A stretch of 43,037 nt of DNA, from positions 1 through 43,037 of the forward strand of contig CALLBC010000158.1 of NCBI GenBank assembly GCA_938001965.1, given 5' to 3'. The stretch comes from an uncultured Bdellovibrionales bacterium (GTDB taxonomy: Bacteria; Bdellovibrionota; Bdellovibrionia; Bdellovibrionales; UBA1609). Below, in pieces: positions 1-7,565 of the stretch; position 1 is the stretch's first letter, and the number at the start of each line of letters is the position of its first letter. A program made the translations under genes and the position numbers. The notes under the pieces were generated by a model that was not told the DNA's origin, did no database searches, and saw only the letters and a list, made by a program, of their open reading frames with translations.

Positions 1-1
1 G

Positions 2-226
2 GCAGCTAATGGTTTGCGTTCTAGTAAAATAAATGTTCAACAAAAGTTAAAAATCACTGCTGATAATATCAAGATGCATATTGTAAAAAAAGGGGAGAGC
101 TTAATTGCCATCGCCAATAAATATAAAGTTTCAATGAATAATATTTTACAAGCTAACGATTTAAAAAATAAATCTAAAATTAGAATTGGTAGCACAATCA
201 GAATTCCAGTAGCTAGTCGTAATTAG
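2..226 (+). CDS. LysM-domain protein, C-terminal fragment
   Basis: This is the 3' end of a gene that enters from the left edge; the frame is open from base 2 to the TAG at 224-226. The fragment first shows the tail of one LysM repeat (AANGLRSSKINVQQKLKI). A complete LysM follows (HIVKKGESLIAIANKYKVS, then NNILQANDLKNKSKIRIGSTIRIP), and the protein ends about five residues later. LysM repeats bind peptidoglycan glycan strands. Tandem C-terminal LysM repeats are typical of MltD-type lytic transglycosylases and some amidases and endopeptidases. The catalytic part lies outside the window, so the enzyme class cannot be assigned. An in-frame TTG at 14 is an internal codon, not a convincing start. 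Confidence 0.8.
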   Translation, partial: AANGLRSSKINVQQKLKITADNIKMHIVKKGESLIAIANKYKVSMNNILQANDLKNKSKIRIGSTIRIPVASRN

Positions 227-236
227 TTGGTGAGTT

Positions 237-719
237 GTGTTTTTAGTAAAAATTAGTCAAGCTACAATTTTGTTATCAGTAATTACACACTTTCATTTTT
301 CTTATGCCCGTTGTGGGCCATTTGATTTAGAGAAAGAGAAGTCTAAAATTCCTATCATTGTTAGTGGCGTTGTTTTGTCGTCAGCAGAAGTTATTTTACC
401 TATGAAGGTAGTTGGTAAAAAAAATCAAGATATTTTTGCAGAGGGTGGAAAAAAATATATTCCTGTTCCTGCACCCAACGCTAAAAAAGAGCATAATTTT
501 TCTTTTAAAGTAACTGCAGTAAAAAAAGGTTACTTAAGAGAGGGAGAGGTAATCAACTTTAAATATCTAAAATCAAACTATGCCTGCCCAAGTACACAAA
601 CACCCAAGGCGAATGAGCATTGGCAGTTAAACATATCAGAGATAGATGAGAGTAATTTAGCTAAACCCTATGGAACTCATTGCTCATATCTTGGTTTTCA
701 GACTAATTTGAATGAGTAA
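237..719 (+). CDS. Exported protein of unknown function, possible netrin/TIMP-like fold
   Basis: The protein has 160 aa and starts at GTG 237; an in-frame TGA at 231 excludes an earlier start. GGTGAG lies only two bases upstream, so the ribosome binding site is poorly spaced. Residues 1-24 form a signal peptide ending near SYARC. The mature part has Cys at about 26 and two more near the C-terminus (YACPS, THCSY). A central FKVTAVKKGYLREGEVINF resembles the strand pattern of secreted netrin/TIMP-like OB-fold proteins, where an early Cys and a 'V..V.KG....G..I' stretch recur. That comparison is a weak inference. The gene follows the LysM gene by 10 nt in the same direction and may be cotranscribed with it. 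Confidence 0.6.
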   Translation: MFLVKISQATILLSVITHFHFSYARCGPFDLEKEKSKIPIIVSGVVLSSAEVILPMKVVGKKNQDIFAEGGKKYIPVPAPNAKKEHNFSFKVTAVKKGYLREGEVINFKYLKSNYACPSTQTPKANEHWQLNISEIDESNLAKPYGTHCSYLGFQTNLNE

Positions 720-754
720 ACTTTGAAATTAGGGAGTGTTGATGTTTTACCGTG

Positions 755-1525
755 TCATTTAAAGCAACTTTTGTTTTCTTTTTTCTTTTTGTCTAGGTAC
801 TTAAATAGTGGTTCTGCCATTAATGAATTAAAAGAACCAAAGTGAGGTAGGGCTTCGCTTAAGATCTCTGCTAGCATACCATTGCAGCTATTTTTAAAGC
901 CTTGGTACTGTTGAGAGCTTTTATAAAACTGTCCATAAGGGCTATAGCCATCAGAAAAATCGGCGGCAGAGGTCCCAATTTTTATGACTTGTCCCTTGGC
1001 ATCTTTTTTTAAATATCCCATTACAATATTACTTAGTTTTACTAATTGAGACTGAGTCAGTAAAATGTCCACGGCTTTAAAGTAAGTACTAATTTCATCG
1101 TAATAATATTTTTGGTGAGAATTACAGCCAGGGTGTTTACAACTTTTGATGGCCTCATGAATATTGTCATTACTTCCAATTATGGGCACGGCATAGACCA
1201 CGGCAGGCGTTTTTAAAAACATGGCACCTGGTGCTGCTAGTGCCTGGGCAAGGATTGATGATCCGGCTTTATAGAAGCCTTCATCACCCCAGTTAAAGGC
1301 AACGTAGGAGTAGTGTTTAAAGTCATTGTTGAAGTTTAAATATTTTATTGGCAGTACAATGCCAGCATGAAGGCTGGTGAATTTAACAACTTTAATGATA
1401 TATTGTTTTTCAAGATTATCAGCACAGTAAAGTTCAGGTTTTGTAGAGTTCAGAGTTGGATTTATATTTTCACTGTGACAGGCACAAAAAATAAATAAAA
1501 AAAGAACTTGTAGCAGAGATCTCAC
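755..1525 (-). CDS. Lipoprotein of the DUF2459 (TIGR02117) family
   Basis: The protein has 256 aa. A short hydrophobic signal ends at FCAC, a plausible lipobox with the lipidated Cys at about residue 16. The mature protein contains HAGIVLPI (about 54-61), WGDEGFY (about 79-85) and a late NSCNGMLAEIL block. These match my memory of the DUF2459 family, which has an H-T/A-G-x-V-L-P box, a WGD..FY box and an N-T-C-N box; biochemical function is not established. The start is GTG at 1523-1525. There is no Shine-Dalgarno sequence, but TATACT lies exactly six bases upstream, so the message may be leaderless. It lies downstream of the riboswitch RNA on the same strand, beyond that RNA's terminator, and is probably transcribed independently. 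Confidence 0.7.
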   Translation of the reverse strand: MRSLLQVLFLFIFCACHSENINPTLNSTKPELYCADNLEKQYIIKVVKFTSLHAGIVLPIKYLNFNNDFKHYSYVAFNWGDEGFYKAGSSILAQALAAPGAMFLKTPAVVYAVPIIGSNDNIHEAIKSCKHPGCNSHQKYYYDEISTYFKAVDILLTQSQLVKLSNIVMGYLKKDAKGQVIKIGTSAADFSDGYSPYGQFYKSSQQYQGFKNSCNGMLAEILSEALPHFGSFNSLMAEPLFKYLDKKKKENKSCFK

Positions 1526-1531
1526 TGAATA

Positions 1532-1537
1532 AGTATA
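1532..1537 (-). promoter_or_regulatory. Candidate -10 box (TATACT) for the DUF2459 gene
   Basis: TATACT on the minus strand is followed by six bases and then the GTG start. This would place the transcript start at or next to the start codon. No good -35 is seen 17 nt upstream. The support is the repeated 5-6 nt spacing found at other SD-less genes in the window. Confidence 0.35.
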
Positions 1538-1599
1538 TTTTAAAAAAAATGAATAGAAAAGAGCAACATCGGCTCATAAATAATAAAAAGTTTTTATAG

Positions 1600-1633
1600 A
1601 AAAAAGGGGACCCACCAAGCAAGGGATGCTTGG
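1600..1633 (-). terminator. Intrinsic terminator with an alternative upstream pairing partner
   Basis: In the minus-strand RNA, CCAAGCA (1633-1627) pairs with TGCTTGG (1621-1615) over a five-base loop. GGGTCCCC and six U residues (1605-1600) follow. An identical TGCTTGG lies upstream at 1690-1684, just after the aptamer. CCAAGCA could pair with either copy, giving mutually exclusive helices of the kind expected in an expression platform. Confidence 0.6.
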
Positions 1634-1889
1634 CAGGCTTATGCGGGGATATGTTTTCCCGAGCTGAAACTCTCCTTTAGAGTCCAAGCACCAAAAGCCT
1701 GATTTTATCAACTTTGGCAGCTGGCTGGCATCGATCAAAAGATCATTAGCCCCTAAAGCTTTGCGCCCTACCGTTTCCGGCAGTTTGCCTTGAGACAAAG
1801 GATGGAATCACTCTGGGAGTGTTATTCCATAATTTTCTTACCTCCTAAGATAAGTTGTAGACATCCTGTCTGTTGTTAAACTTCCTTGT
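1600..1889 (-). ncRNA. Cyclic-di-GMP-I (GEMM-I) riboswitch RNA, merRNA-like
   Basis: On the minus strand the aptamer spans about 1800 to 1712. A closing CTTTG/CAAAG helix encloses AAGGCAAACTGCC, a perfect CTGCCG-GAAA-CGGTAG hairpin (1783-1768), then GGGCGCAAAGC, a TGATC-TTTT-GATC arm and GATGCCAGCCAGCTGCC. This is the GEMM-I consensus, including the GAAA tetraloop used for tertiary docking. Upstream is a strong hairpin (1830-1802, ATGGAAT/ATTCCAT). Downstream are further small hairpins and an intrinsic terminator. No ORF is controlled: the next gene starts at 1525 with its own candidate -10. Bdellovibrio bacteriovorus makes a very abundant stand-alone c-di-GMP riboswitch RNA (merRNA), and this looks like a counterpart. 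Ligand choice between c-di-GMP and cGAMP cannot be settled by eye. An AGGAGG (1846-1841) precedes a two-codon ATG-GAA-TAA ORF inside the 5' hairpin. Confidence 0.9.
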
Positions 1890-1895
1890 GATTTA

Positions 1896-1924
1896 ATAAT
1901 AACGCGTTGCAATAAAAAGGTAAA
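1896..1924 (-). promoter_or_regulatory. Candidate sigma-70 promoter of the riboswitch RNA
   Basis: On the minus strand TTTACC (1924-1919) is followed by a 17-nt spacer and TATTAT (1901-1896). Transcription would begin near 1889, about 60 nt before the 5' hairpin. Spacing is optimal, and no competing promoter is obvious between this and the aptamer. Confidence 0.5.
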
Positions 1925-2065
1925 GAATAAAAGTTAATGTGGATCAAAATAGGTTGTTAGCTTTTGAGAATAGCCCAAAACAAGCTCCTAGCTTGCGTTT
2001 GAGCGGTATATGAATGTATCGAAATGAATCTTGTAAATTTACTTATTAATTTTTTATGTATCAGT

Positions 2066-2854
2066 TTAGTTACTATAATTTGAAATAGATTGCCCAAGAG
2101 CCCTGAAAGCCTCTGCAGCTGTACTTTCTGGCTTGCCTTGTACAAAGGGGATTCCAGTTTCAGAACAAACAGCTACATGGGGGTCAAATGGAATCTCTGT
2201 TATTTTATCAATTCCATTGGCATCTAAATATGTATCTAACTGACCTTTAGGAAATAAGTCATAACTAATATCACTACCTGGAGGAGTAAAAGAGGACATA
2301 TTTTCAACCACGCCTAGTATAGGAATGTTTATTTTTTTAAACATATCAATAGCTTTTTGTGCGTCTACTAGAGCAATATTTTGTGGTGTGCAAACAACTA
2401 AGGCGCCATTCACTGGAACTTTTTGAGCGATGGTTAAGCAAATATCGCCAGTTCCAGGAGGTAAATCTATAAGTAAGTAATCTAACTCTCCCCAAAGAAC
2501 ATCTTTAAAAAATTGATCGATCGCTTTAAATAACATTGGGCCACGCCAAATCACAGCTTGGTTTTCTTCAACTAAAAAACCCATACTCATTAATTTAATG
2601 CCATACTTAGTGATTGGAATAATTTTTCCGTCTTTATCAATTTCAGGTTTTTGGTGTAGAGCACCCATCATGCGTGGAACGCTTGGTCCATAAACATCAG
2701 CATCAAGTAGGCCAACCTTGTAGCCTTTTTCTTTTAATGAGGTGGCTACATTAATAGAAACAGAGCTTTTACCAACGCCACCTTTGCCAGATCCAATAAC
2801 AATAATTTTTTTGATTCCAGGGACTGGGGCCTGCTGACTAAATGGATTGCTCAT
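2066..2854 (-). CDS. mrp: Mrp/NBP35-family P-loop ATPase (ApbC-like)
   Basis: The protein has 262 aa from the ATG at 2854-2852, chosen because AGAGG sits just upstream; an in-frame start at 2890 would add 12 unconserved residues. Residues about 20-28 are the deviant Walker A GKGGVGKSS. DADVYGPSVPRMMG, the Walker B LLIDLPPGTGD and GVVENMSSF follow in the order usual for Mrp proteins, which deliver Fe-S clusters to apoproteins as dimers. The stretch after ENMS normally reads xxCPxC, with two Cys that bind the bridging cluster. Here it is SFTPPGSDISYDLFPKG, with no Cys, and the usual FGxGG is also lost. The ATPase appears intact but cluster binding in the known way does not. It is transcribed away from glyS. 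Confidence 0.85.
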   Translation of the reverse strand: MSNPFSQQAPVPGIKKIIVIGSGKGGVGKSSVSINVATSLKEKGYKVGLLDADVYGPSVPRMMGALHQKPEIDKDGKIIPITKYGIKLMSMGFLVEENQAVIWRGPMLFKAIDQFFKDVLWGELDYLLIDLPPGTGDICLTIAQKVPVNGALVVCTPQNIALVDAQKAIDMFKKINIPILGVVENMSSFTPPGSDISYDLFPKGQLDTYLDANGIDKITEIPFDPHVAVCSETGIPFVQGKPESTAAEAFRALGQSISNYSN

Positions 2855-2932
2855 AAATACCTCTTTTGTAAGACAGGCTAGGGTTATCACAGGATAATGC
2901 TACTGACAACGGCAGTATATGCTTATCCAGCC

Positions 2933-3047
2933 ATCTTAAATTCTGAGGGGTTTCAATTGACCAAAAGCCTCAGACATACGGTGCTCGGGCTTCGCTCTCT
3001 GCTCCGAACTCGTTTTAGGTCAATTGAAAACCCTCAGAATTCAAGAT
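2933..3047. repeat. Long inverted repeat element 1
   Basis: The arms 2933-2962 and 3018-3047 are complementary at 28 of 30 positions and flank a core of 55 bases. The core recurs in reverse orientation at 3238-3292 with about 85% identity by eye. The element lies in the 566-nt gap between the divergent mrp and glyS genes, so it is not at a gene 3' end like most of its relatives. Confidence 0.85.
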
Positions 3048-3237
3048 TAGTTGTTTATTAATATAGCACTTTTATAATGACTAAGGCTTGTTTTCGGAGA
3101 GTTATTGATGCTTATAAATTAACTCTTTTGTAATTTTCTGTTGGTAAAAGGCACTAAGATTATAGAGCATGTAGTCTGTCGTCATAGATTGAAATGCTCA
3201 ATCATTTCATAGTTCAGTGCTTGCCTTATATACATTT

Positions 3238-3292
3238 AAAACGAGTTCGGAGCGGAAGGCCGTAGGCCTGAGCACCGTATGTTTGAGGCTTT
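3238..3292. repeat. Second, inverted copy of the element 1 core
   Basis: The reverse complement matches 2964-3016 closely, including CATACGGTGCTC and GCTCCGAACTCG, with a two-base length difference in the loop. The loop carries its own small hairpin, GGCCGTAGGCC. Clear long arms are absent; the flanks TTATATACATTTAAA and TTTATACCTTCTTAAA (as complement) are only loosely alike and may be decayed arms. The rest of the gap (3048-3237 and 3293-3400) holds no gene I can support. Confidence 0.75.
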
Positions 3293-3420
3293 AAGAAGGT
3301 ATAAAATCCAAATTGAGTGAAGGAAATTATTTCTGGGGGGCATGTGTTTTATTGCTTTACCACCCAGACTTAAGTTGGTACTTTTTTAGGTGAATTTACA
3401 CCTAAAAGGATGTCCGATTT

Positions 3421-4767
3421 ATGGCAGCGAAAATAGTTCCCTTAGAAGATTTAGCAACACTAGTTTCATTATGTAAAAGACGTGGTTTTGTGTTTCAAAG
3501 TAGTGAAATTTACGGCGGCTTAGGCTCCTGTTGGGATTATGGCCCTTTGGGTTCTCAGTATAAATTAAATGTGAAAATGGCTTGGTGGAATGCCATGACT
3601 CGCAGAGATGATATTGTTGGTTTAGATGCTGCGATTTTAATGCATCCAACAGTTTGGAAGGCCTCTGGTCATATAGATACATTTACCGATCCGTTGGTTG
3701 ATTGCAAAGATTGTAAAAATCGTTTCAGAGAAGATCATGGAACTAAAGATGATGGCACTGTGGCCTGCCCAAAGTGTGGAGGCACAAATGTAACAGAAGC
3801 TAGAAACTTTAACTTAATGTTTAAAACCTTTATGGGAGCAGTTGAAGGTGATAGCTCTGAAATATTTCTACGCCCAGAAACGGCACAAGGTATTTTTGTA
3901 AACTTTGAAAATGCTCAAACCTCTGCTCGTAAAAAAATCCCATTTGGTATTGCTCAAATTGGTAAATCATTTCGTAATGAAATCACTCCGGGTAATTTTA
4001 TTTTTAGAACTCGTGAGTTTGAACAAATGGAAATGCAATACTTTGTTGAGCCCTCAACTGCCGATAAGTTTTTTGAGCAGTGGAAAGAGGCTCGTATGAA
4101 CTTTTTATTAAACTTAGGTTTAGAAAAAGATCGCTTAAAGTTTAGTGAGCATGGCCCAGACGCCTTAGCCCATTATGCTAAAGCGGCCTTTGATGTGGAA
4201 TACAAGTTCCCGTTTGGCTGGGAAGAGCTAGAAGGTATTCACAATCGTGGCGATTATGATTTATCACAACACCAAGAGTTCAGTGGTAAAAAGCTAGAGT
4301 ACTTTGATGAAGCCAATAAAAAGAAGTATGTTCCTTATGTGGTAGAAACAGCCATTGGTTGTGATCGTTTATCCTTAGCCTTGCTTTGTAATGCTTACCG
4401 AGAAGAGCATACTACCTTAGATAATGGTAAAGAAGATAAACGCGTGGTCCTTGGCTTAAAGCCTGAGTTAGCACCCTATAAAGCTGGTATCTTACCTTTA
4501 TCTAAAAAAGAGCCATTACAAAATATGTCTAGAAAGATCCAAGATGATTTAAACCAACATTGGTTAGTTAATTATGATGAGTCGGGAAGTATTGGTAAGC
4601 GCTATCGACGTCAAGATGAAGTGGGTACACCATTTTGTATTACTGTAGACTTTGAAAGTGTTGATGACCAAAAGGTTACGATTAGACATAGGGACACAAT
4701 GGCCCAAGATCGAATCCCTGCTGAACAAATTAAAAGTTATATGTCAGATAAATTTATGAATTGGTAG
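3421..4767 (+). CDS. glyS: Glycyl-tRNA synthetase, homodimeric class II type
   Basis: The protein has 448 aa, starts at ATG 3421 and is preceded by AAAAGGA. It charges tRNA-Gly with glycine using ATP in the cytoplasm. Visible signatures are the N-terminal [20 protein letters not shown], a zinc-type pair CKDCKNRF...CPKCGG (about 98-119), the class II motif 2 ([21 protein letters not shown], split [12 protein letters not shown]) and motif 3 [10 protein letters not shown] (about 317-326). A C-terminal anticodon-binding domain ends in [11 protein letters not shown]. This is the alpha-2 form (eukaryotic, archaeal, Thermus and Gram-positive type), not the alpha2-beta2 GlyQ/GlyS enzyme of Escherichia coli. 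Length fits the family. Confidence 0.97.
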
Positions 4768-4836
4768 GGGCTATCGTAAATTAAATTATGTGTTTTCAGG
4801 AAGGGCTGGCCATCAGTCAAATCAAGGAGGAGTAAG

Positions 4837-4908
4837 TTGAGTTTGAACAAAAAAGACAAGTTAAAAGACACAATTTATTTTGAGATAGCTGGGGGGCTAA
4901 GTCTATGA
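4837..4908 (+). CDS. Small 23-aa ORF translationally coupled to ppdK
   Basis: A textbook AAGGAGGAG (about 4824-4832) precedes TTG 4837. The frame encodes MSLNKKDKLKDTIYFEIAGG plus three residues and stops with the TGA of ATGA, overlapping the ATG of ppdK at 4905. The peptide is Lys/Asp-rich and has no recognised domain. The strong ribosome binding site and four-base overlap suggest it is translated and helps load ribosomes onto ppdK. It could instead be a relic of a longer gene. No attenuator hairpin is visible. Confidence 0.5.
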   Translation: MSLNKKDKLKDTIYFEIAGGLSL

Positions 4909-7565
4909 GTACATCCAATCAAAGCGTTTACTTTTTTGGTGACGGAAAGGCTGATGGCGATTCAAAAATGAAGAACGCCCTCGGCGGTAAAGGTGCCAAT
5001 TTAGCTGAAATGACTTCATTGGGTTTGCCAGTTCCTCCAGGCTTTACAATCTCTACGGACATGTGTTTACAGTTTTTTAAAGATGGTCAAAAAATTAGTG
5101 AGAGTTTAAAAAAAGAGGTTCTTAGTTCTTTAGTTAACGTAGAAAAGATCATGGGCAAAAAATTTGGTGGTGATAAAAACCCATTGCTTGTCAGTGTAAG
5201 AAGTGGTGCCCGAGTTAGTATGCCAGGAATGATGGATACAATTTTAAACTTAGGTTTAAATGATCAAACCGTTGAAGTGTTGTCGTCATTAACTGGTAAC
5301 CCACGTTTTGCTTGGGACTCCTATCGTCGCTTTTTACAAATGTACTCTAATGTAGTTATGGGTATGAATATTTCCTTACTTGATATTAAAATGGAAGACC
5401 TTAAAGATTCTAAAGGCTATGAATTTGATACTGAGTTACAAGTTGAGGACTTAAAATTTTTAGTTTCAGAATTTAAAAAGCAAATTGCAGACTCTTGTGG
5501 AAGAGAATTTCCAACAGACCCTTATGACCAACTATGGGGTGCCATTGATGCTGTATTTAAAAGTTGGAATGTTTCAAGAGCTGTGGCCTACAGAGAGATG
5601 AACCAAATTTCACACGACTGGGGAACTGCTGTAAATGTTCAGTCCATGGTTTTTGGGAATATGGGGGAGTCATCAGCCACGGGCGTTGCCTTTACAAGGA
5701 ATCCTTCAACGGGTGAGAATAAATATTACGGCGAGTATTTAATAAATGCTCAAGGTGAAGATGTGGTGGCTGGGATTAGAACTCCACAAAGTATTATTAA
5801 AGAGGATGCCAGTACTGATGGCGGCTCTATGGAAGAAAAGTTTCCAGAGGTGTACTCACAGTTACAAGACATTTTTGTTAAATTAGAAACTCATTATAGA
5901 GATATGCAGGATATTGAGTTTACAGTTGAGCAAGGTAAACTTTGGATGTTGCAAACTCGAACGGGTAAAAGAACAGCTCAGGCTGCGCTTACCATTGCCA
6001 TGGACATGCTCGATTCAGGACTAATCTCTGAAGATGAAGCTTTACTGCGTATTGATCCAAAAAGTTTAGATCAGCTATTGCATCCAACTTTAGATCCTAA
6101 TGCTGAAAAAACCACAATTGCTAAAGGTCTTCCAGCAAGCCCTGGTGGTGCCTGCGGAAAAGTTACTTTCACTAGTGAAGAGGCTGTAGCTGCAGCAGAA
6201 AAAGGACAAAAGGTCATTCTTGTTCGTATTGAAACCTCTCCTGAAGACATTGAGGGCATGAATGCCGCTGAAGGTATATTAACTTCAAGAGGTGGTATGA
6301 CTTCTCACGCAGCTGTTGTTGCCCGAGGAATGGGGAAGTGTTGTGTTGCCGGTTGTGGTGCCATGGAAGTGGATTATGCCAAGAAACAATTTATTGTGAG
6401 CGGATATGTGGTTAAAGAAGGTGATATTATTACCTTGGACGGATCCAGTGGTGAAGTTTATTTGGGTGAAGTTAAAACAATAAAACCTAAACTTGATAAC
6501 AATTTTAAGCGAGTCATGGACTTGGCTGATAAAAAGCGTCGTTTAAAAGTAAGAACTAATGCCGACACAGCAAAAGACGCAATGATTGCTCGCGAGTTTG
6601 GTGCAGAAGGGATTGGCCTATGTCGAACTGAGCATATGTTTTTTGAAAGTAGTCGTATTGATGTAATGCGCGAGATGATTTTATCTGAAAATAGTGCTGA
6701 ACGAAAAGAAGCATTAAATAAATTACTTCCTATGCAGCGCCAAGATTTTTACGATTTATTTAAAGCCATGATCGGCTTACCGGTAACAATTAGGTTACTA
6801 GATCCGCCACTCCATGAGTTCTTACCTCATACAGAAAAAGAGATTAACGAGTTGTCAGGTCGAATTGATGTTCCAGTCTCTCGATTAAAAAGTAAGATTA
6901 AGCCCCTTGAGGAGTTTAACCCAATGCTTGGCCACAGGGGCTGTCGCTTGGCTATTACTTACCCAGAGATCTATGTGATGCAGGCAAGAGCTATTAGTGA
7001 GGCGGCCTCAGATCTAATTAAAGAAGGGCAGACACTTGTTCCTGAAATAATGATTCCACTAGTTGGTATGGCTAAAGAGTTAGAAATACTAAGAAAATTA
7101 GTAATCTCTGAAGTTGAAGCTGTGCAGAAAGAAAAAGCGGTTGAATTTGATTACTTAGTTGGTACCATGATCGAGCTACCACGCGCAGCACTAACTGCTG
7201 ACGAGGTGGCAGAGCATGCTGATTTCTTCAGTTTTGGAACGAATGATCTAACACAAACTTGTTTAGGGATTTCGCGAGATGATGCCGGAAGGTTTTTATC
7301 ATCTTATATTACTGAAGGAGTTATGGCCGCTGACCCATTTGCAAGTATTGATGTAAAAGGTGTGGGCGGGCTCGTAGATACGGCCGTTAAATTAGGTCGT
7401 ACTAATAAAAAGAATTTAAAAATTGGTATATGCGGAGAGCACGGAGGCGACCCGGAAAGTATAAACTTTTTCAATAAGACGGGTTTAGATTACGTAAGTT
7501 GTTCTCCATTTAGGGTTCCCATAGCCAGACTTGCCGCAGCTCAATCCCAACTTAAAAAGCAATAA
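4905..7565 (+). CDS. ppdK: Pyruvate, phosphate dikinase
   Basis: The protein has 886 aa, the normal length. It interconverts pyruvate, ATP and phosphate with phosphoenolpyruvate, AMP and pyrophosphate in the cytoplasm. The N-terminal nucleotide-binding domain begins GGKGANLAEMTSLGLPVPPG and continues through RSGARVSMPGMMDT. The swivelling phosphohistidine domain has GGMTSHAAVVARGMGK (about 463-478). The C-terminal PEP/pyruvate barrel carries RTEHMF, LGHRGCRL, FGTNDLTQT, GICGEHGGDP and the active-site Cys in YVSCSPFRVPIARLAAAQ. The start is ATG 4905, preceded by GGGGGG. The gene overlaps the small ORF before it and is followed after 11 nt by smc, so the two are probably cotranscribed. Confidence 0.97.
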   Translation: MSTSNQSVYFFGDGKADGDSKMKNALGGKGANLAEMTSLGLPVPPGFTISTDMCLQFFKDGQKISESLKKEVLSSLVNVEKIMGKKFGGDKNPLLVSVRSGARVSMPGMMDTILNLGLNDQTVEVLSSLTGNPRFAWDSYRRFLQMYSNVVMGMNISLLDIKMEDLKDSKGYEFDTELQVEDLKFLVSEFKKQIADSCGREFPTDPYDQLWGAIDAVFKSWNVSRAVAYREMNQISHDWGTAVNVQSMVFGNMGESSATGVAFTRNPSTGENKYYGEYLINAQGEDVVAGIRTPQSIIKEDASTDGGSMEEKFPEVYSQLQDIFVKLETHYRDMQDIEFTVEQGKLWMLQTRTGKRTAQAALTIAMDMLDSGLISEDEALLRIDPKSLDQLLHPTLDPNAEKTTIAKGLPASPGGACGKVTFTSEEAVAAAEKGQKVILVRIETSPEDIEGMNAAEGILTSRGGMTSHAAVVARGMGKCCVAGCGAMEVDYAKKQFIVSGYVVKEGDIITLDGSSGEVYLGEVKTIKPKLDNNFKRVMDLADKKRRLKVRTNADTAKDAMIAREFGAEGIGLCRTEHMFFESSRIDVMREMILSENSAERKEALNKLLPMQRQDFYDLFKAMIGLPVTIRLLDPPLHEFLPHTEKEINELSGRIDVPVSRLKSKIKPLEEFNPMLGHRGCRLAITYPEIYVMQARAISEAASDLIKEGQTLVPEIMIPLVGMAKELEILRKLVISEVEAVQKEKAVEFDYLVGTMIELPRAALTADEVAEHADFFSFGTNDLTQTCLGISRDDAGRFLSSYITEGVMAADPFASIDVKGVGGLVDTAVKLGRTNKKNLKIGICGEHGGDPESINFFNKTGLDYVSCSPFRVPIARLAAAQSQLKKQ

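Follow-up and report, generated by a model that had tools for sequence, protein, structure and literature searches.

The predicted aptamer RNA and its transcription signals

The window, which is the whole 43,037-nucleotide stretch of DNA analysed here, carries a complete c-di-GMP-I (GEMM-I) aptamer on its minus strand at positions 1799-1713. The full aptamer proposed in the original prediction is borne out by a scan with the Rfam covariance model RF01051, in which it scores 77 bits (E 1.5e-13) against a curated gathering cut-off of 35 bits and covers model positions 1-87 of 87. It is the sole RF01051 match in the 3.55-Mb assembly, and the sequence of the RNA as a whole is likewise present in a single copy in its genome. 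The gene mrp, which encodes a NUBPL-type ATPase, lies codirectionally 269 nt upstream of the aptamer, and the gene that follows the aptamer, also codirectional and separated from it by 187 nt, belongs to the DUF2459 family (PF09601). A dispersed palindromic repeat (window 2933-3047 and 3237-3292) with inverted arms of 34, 27 and 20 nt lies in the interval from mrp to the glycyl-tRNA synthetase gene. This repeat has 18 genomic matches, and three of them adjoin a GGDEF gene on contig C117.

The RNA itself would run for approximately 289 nt (1601-1889, on the minus strand, as are all of its features), its ends being placed from the promoter and the terminator T-run. The predicted fold of 1602-1897 beats all 200 dinucleotide shuffles (z -3.8). 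A 5' hairpin, AGAC-AGGAT-GTCT (1859-1871), has compensatory changes to TAGAC/GTCTA in congener G002 and AAAGAC/GTCTTT in congener G003, as read from an alignment of three sequences only. It is followed by a GGAGG element (1841-1845), which is placed by the predicted fold inside a hairpin at 1854-1837 and is found between the 5' part and the aptamer in most relatives; in the alignment with these relatives, no start codon is conserved after it. A further hairpin, supported by alignment and predicted fold, lies immediately 5' of the aptamer (1802-1830). A possible outer helix, GGAGG/CCCC, is invariant in the window's lineage.

The proposed promoter, TTTACC-17-TATTAT, is recovered by a promoter scan at 1924-1896, with the -35 element TTTACC at 1924-1919, a spacer of 17 and the -10 element TATTAT at 1901-1896, inside the longer motif GCGTTATTAT (1905-1896). 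Such a generic scan is uninformative in an AT-rich stretch, yielding 14 promoter-like sites in window positions 1-5000 where 14.5 are expected from shuffles, and promoter and terminator were therefore examined by comparison across relatives. The -10 motif GCGTTATTAT occurs at an identical distance (-106 from the aptamer) in G002 and G003. The motif G[CA]G[TC]TANNNT is present upstream of the RNA in 10 of 16 loci of family f17 and 10 of 13 loci of family f21, which belong to another class of the phylum (0.5 expected in each from shuffles). In Bdellovibrio bacteriovorus HD100, the -10 motif is located at -260 from the aptamer, from which transcription would be expected to begin near -244; the 5' end reported for the RNA corresponds to -234. 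It is this conservation in the congeners, in f17 and f21 and in HD100, not the scan statistics, that supports a promoter belonging to the RNA.

The intrinsic terminator (1600-1638) consists of a 12-bp stem at 1638-1610 (-19.1 kcal/mol), followed by CCCC and a run of six T at 1605-1600, and its hairpin is conserved in the congeners G001, G002 and G003. It lies approximately 110 nt 3' of the aptamer and looks constitutive, and in the predicted fold the hairpin forms independently of the aptamer. When the 230 nt that follow the aptamer were examined in relatives, 105 of 127 loci had a terminator at least as stable as -9 kcal/mol, compared with 8 of 127 shuffled controls; the T-run lies at a median of 115 nt 3' of the aptamer. 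That the RNA has its own terminator, as had been proposed, is thus supported both by the stem and T-run in the window and by the comparable terminators of its relatives. Read from the sequence, these conserved motifs predict that the RNA is transcribed as a unit of its own, from its promoter to its terminator, as the merRNA of HD100 is.

Distribution, probable orthology with merRNA and predicted ligand

Of the 144 class genomes searched with RF01051, 91 have a match, exactly one in each. The same holds for 116 of 291 genomes drawn from the phylum, again with one in each, under strict filters by which weak second copies could be missed. The design is thus conserved well beyond the genus. The loci compared comprised the 91 from the class and 40 from other classes. 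Among relatives that lack the aptamer, an Rfam scan of 18 mrp loci detected no divergent aptamer at E values up to 5.

The position of the aptamer relative to mrp is also shared. In 61 of the 91 class loci, HD100 included, mrp is codirectional with the aptamer and upstream of it, at a distance of 466 nt in HD100; at 21 loci of family f8, mrp was searched for within 5 kb and was not found. One genome in the set, a single contig of 3,782,950 bases (G072), is presumably that of HD100, given its genome size and the overlapping position of merRNA, and its aptamer lies at 1,073,868-1,073,951 on the minus strand. This is inside the interval to which merRNA was mapped in HD100 (1,073,741-1,074,185, minus strand; Karunker et al. 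2013, PMC3627812). In that report, merRNA is described as the dominant attack-phase RNA of HD100 and as a transcript in its own right, with a start distinct from that of mrp (PMC3627812); in attack-phase Bdellovibrio, merRNA reads are reported to be about equal to those of all mRNAs together. The same 2013 paper reported no conservation of merRNA outside the Bdellovibrio lineage (PMC3627812). The window RNA resembles merRNA in its place downstream of mrp, in its promoter type and in its single copy, and the match to merRNA that had been suggested for it holds. On comparative grounds, it is highly probable that the window RNA is a stand-alone RNA gene and the orthologue of HD100 merRNA.

The aptamer would be expected to bind c-di-GMP. 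Variants that sense cGAMP carry an A at the position equivalent to G20 of the Vc2 aptamer. The window aptamer and all 91 class aptamers have a G there, and since this position determines ligand selectivity (PMC9262584), c-di-GMP rather than cGAMP is expected as the ligand; specificity for cGAMP is not favoured, and c-di-GMP is very probably what the window aptamer recognizes. GGDEF domains are present in 142 of the 144 class genomes. The aptamer is absent from all 15 genomes that lack flagellin and present in 91 of the 129 that have it (Fisher p 7e-8, kinship ignored). All 15 flagellin-less genomes are small and belong to one family, and phylogeny may be a partial explanation of this association.

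Several loci in other lineages have features of their own. In families f17 and f21 (L221-L258), a stand-alone aptamer RNA without a micro-ORF lies before a putative queE gene, its aptamer enclosed by a GAAGAGG...CCTCTTC helix; by eye, this pairing is retained with a matching change in G198. The putative queE, named from sequence motifs and not from a family search, is mostly the next gene there, on the same strand and beyond a terminator, and a cis role for the RNA in these families is possible. At two loci of family f25 (L230 and L240, in G201 and G225), the sequence after the aptamer is a long stretch that looks structured but does not resemble the usual terminator, and no Rfam family reaches threshold in it. 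At L241 (G228), the best match of the aptamer within its Rfam clan is c-di-GMP-I-GGC (RF03167).

A conserved micro-ORF ahead of the aptamer in most relatives

In about 62 of the 91 class loci, an ORF of 9-19 codons with a clear Shine-Dalgarno sequence is present upstream of the aptamer (counted by C-terminal motif, 52 by pattern and the rest by eye). The encoded peptides end in -LDPPPK or -DPPPE in families f1 and f10, and in -DHHDEPPK/-EAPK or -HNDKSPK in family f8, in each case directly before the stop codon. Synonymous changes make up 45%, 54% and 58% of codon differences in the micro-ORF frame in three groups, compared with 4-11% when the remaining forward frames are read, and third positions are two to three times as variable as second positions. 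There are no in-frame stops, and the DPPP group ends in all three stop codons. One reverse frame is also rich in synonymous differences, as variable third positions would lead one to expect, but stops occur in it. A regular RNA hairpin was considered in place of a coding ORF and was rejected: a stop-codon hairpin stands approximately 2.6 sd over shuffles in 25 DPPP loci and is weaker elsewhere, while the coding signature is strong. At L119 (G055, family f2), two micro-ORFs, MAKVKIFRLDPPPE and MKLHSKQWNLFPPPI, each followed by a stop codon, occur in tandem ahead of the aptamer.

In HD100, the micro-ORF MRTHEHHDDELK, followed by a stop codon, is located at -170 to -131 from the aptamer, inside the mapped merRNA. 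The accessible text of the original merRNA report describes a search for conserved ORFs only downstream of the riboswitch and does not mention one upstream (PMC3627812), and as far as the open-access literature goes, the micro-ORF in HD100 merRNA and in most relatives appears to have gone unnoticed. Such an arrangement would suit an aptamer that acts as a 3' UTR regulator of a micropeptide mRNA, c-di-GMP controlling the stability or translation of the upstream ORF, with the ORF lost in the window's genus. That reading would also fit the six relatives without an aptamer (G008, G010, G011, G015, G028 and G051) that have the micro-ORF with a strong terminator closely downstream, the ORF being the constant part there. 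Five of these six have it at the mrp locus, where the Rfam scan detected no aptamer at E values up to 5; the micro-ORF of G051 sits on another contig and was outside the aptamer scan. These micro-ORF RNA genes (L266, L268, L261, L269, L267 and L270, respectively) end in -DPPPE or -DPPPK.

The reverse case is found in the window's genus and in f17 and f21, which have the aptamer RNA with no recognisable micro-ORF, and the aptamer therefore needs a role of its own there. In the window, the only candidate is a possible remnant with a TTG start, MGYSQKLTTYFDPH, followed by a stop codon, at 1934-1978 on the minus strand; it is upstream of the promoter, hence probably outside the RNA, and is absent from G002 and G003. 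Further D-P-P-P-K-stop matches, in G001 and at other places in the window's genome, were considered as a moved micro-ORF and were rejected, as the usual start and Shine-Dalgarno context is missing. No covarying pairing between the aptamer region and the ORF start was found, and translation of the ORF is predicted. In Bdellovibrio, the association between GGACAC in the ORF and GTGTC in the aptamer follows clades. Control of an upstream micropeptide by the aptamer is a rather unlikely account of the RNA.

It may be, more tentatively, that merRNA is a two-part gene, in which a translated micropeptide ORF is followed by a c-di-GMP aptamer and terminator, and not purely a non-coding sponge. The gene served would then lie upstream, and the parts would be separable, as suggested by the aptamer alone in the window's genus and the micropeptide alone in the six relatives. 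The ancestral RNA gene probably combined a micropeptide message with a c-di-GMP aptamer. If so, the transcription unit in most relatives would open with the translated micro-ORF, the window's genus having kept only the aptamer part and some other genera only the micropeptide part.

Possible modes of action and comparison with known systems

A stand-alone, terminated and structured RNA could act in trans, as an sRNA whose base pairing is switched by c-di-GMP, and the conserved GGAGG element could pair with C-rich sequences. Such a mechanism is improbable in view of the abundance of the HD100 RNA, which is near that of structural RNA and was seen by its discoverers as an argument against a purely regulatory role, as reported (PMC3627812).

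Regulation in cis is less likely still. As c-di-GMP-I riboswitches mostly work in cis, and DUF2459 follows on the same strand, c-di-GMP might alter terminator read-through and hence DUF2459 expression. It had been suggested that this next gene has its own -10. A TATACT does occur at 1537-1532, but in the stretch from the terminator to DUF2459 the promoter scan found no site scoring 9/12 or more; this part of the original prediction is not well supported, and the lack of a strong promoter-like site there speaks for read-through. However, DUF2459 is present in only 3 of 59 relatives, the two other carriers lack the aptamer, and it is absent from all three congeners (G001, G002 and G003), which keep the RNA; in G001 and G002, its place is taken by convergent genes. 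On this distribution, DUF2459 was rejected as the cis target, and it marks the gene as a newcomer beside a pre-existing RNA gene. With ORF-based gene calls around the loci, no conserved gene was found downstream of the aptamer at the 91 class loci, and of the 55 loci of family f8 that could be scored, 44 have a convergent next gene. By comparison alone, then, control of a downstream gene is not seen, and the intervening terminator folds, by prediction, without involving the aptamer. A cis-acting riboswitch in the window is very unlikely, and these comparisons make it very likely that the RNA exerts no cis-control over DUF2459. The idea that the RNA has no controlled gene thus stands as regards what lies downstream of the aptamer; it may fail for the family as a whole, in most of which a micro-ORF lies upstream.

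The least likely reading, that the aptamer belongs to the 3' UTR of mrp and regulates the end of that mRNA, fits the codirectional mrp upstream but not the conserved promoter that separates the two, the separate start reported for the HD100 RNA (PMC3627812) or the f8 loci where mrp was not found.

The best overall explanation is an independent RNA gene, an orthologue of merRNA, whose product is a free-acting binder of c-di-GMP; from the sequence evidence, its probability is put at roughly 0.8. The window RNA would be transcribed as a separate RNA gene, would bind c-di-GMP and would act away from its own locus, not by switching the next gene. A free-acting binder is ranked first for the window because the aptamer there is without an ORF. 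Its likeliest action would be that of an abundant RNA that ties up or reports c-di-GMP in the flagellated, free-swimming phase. A reservoir function for c-di-GMP is plausible; that a reservoir or sponge is the main function is a tentative proposal, and the high abundance that a sponge would predict is known for HD100 alone.

The role of merRNA has been a matter of speculation since 2013. Given orthologues across the order and the phylum, together with a defined promoter, a conserved micro-ORF and a likely ligand, it can be tested by mutating the parts separately, and nature has already separated the two functions in the aptamer-only genus of the window and in the ORF-only relatives. Should the micropeptide prove to be made, an RNA that ranks among the most abundant in the hunting phase of a predator would serve as a message, and its riboswitch, lying behind the gene instead of ahead of it, would be unusually placed.

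Among known systems, the GEMM-Ib/cGAMP riboswitches of Geobacter are alike in overall aptamer fold but differ at the Vc2 G20 equivalent (PMC9262584), which is G in all 91 relatives here. The c-di-GMP-I riboswitches of RF01051 share the full-length aptamer and the selectivity G of the c-di-GMP type; they are usually 5' UTR elements that control the next gene, whereas the window RNA has no conserved downstream gene. The closest counterpart is merRNA of HD100. It is 445 nt long, whereas the window RNA is shorter because its promoter lies directly ahead of the aptamer part, and it contains an upstream micro-ORF that the window RNA lacks. Like merRNA, the window RNA is predicted to be a separate RNA with a single-copy c-di-GMP-I aptamer, a promoter and a terminator, located downstream of mrp and controlling no gene downstream.
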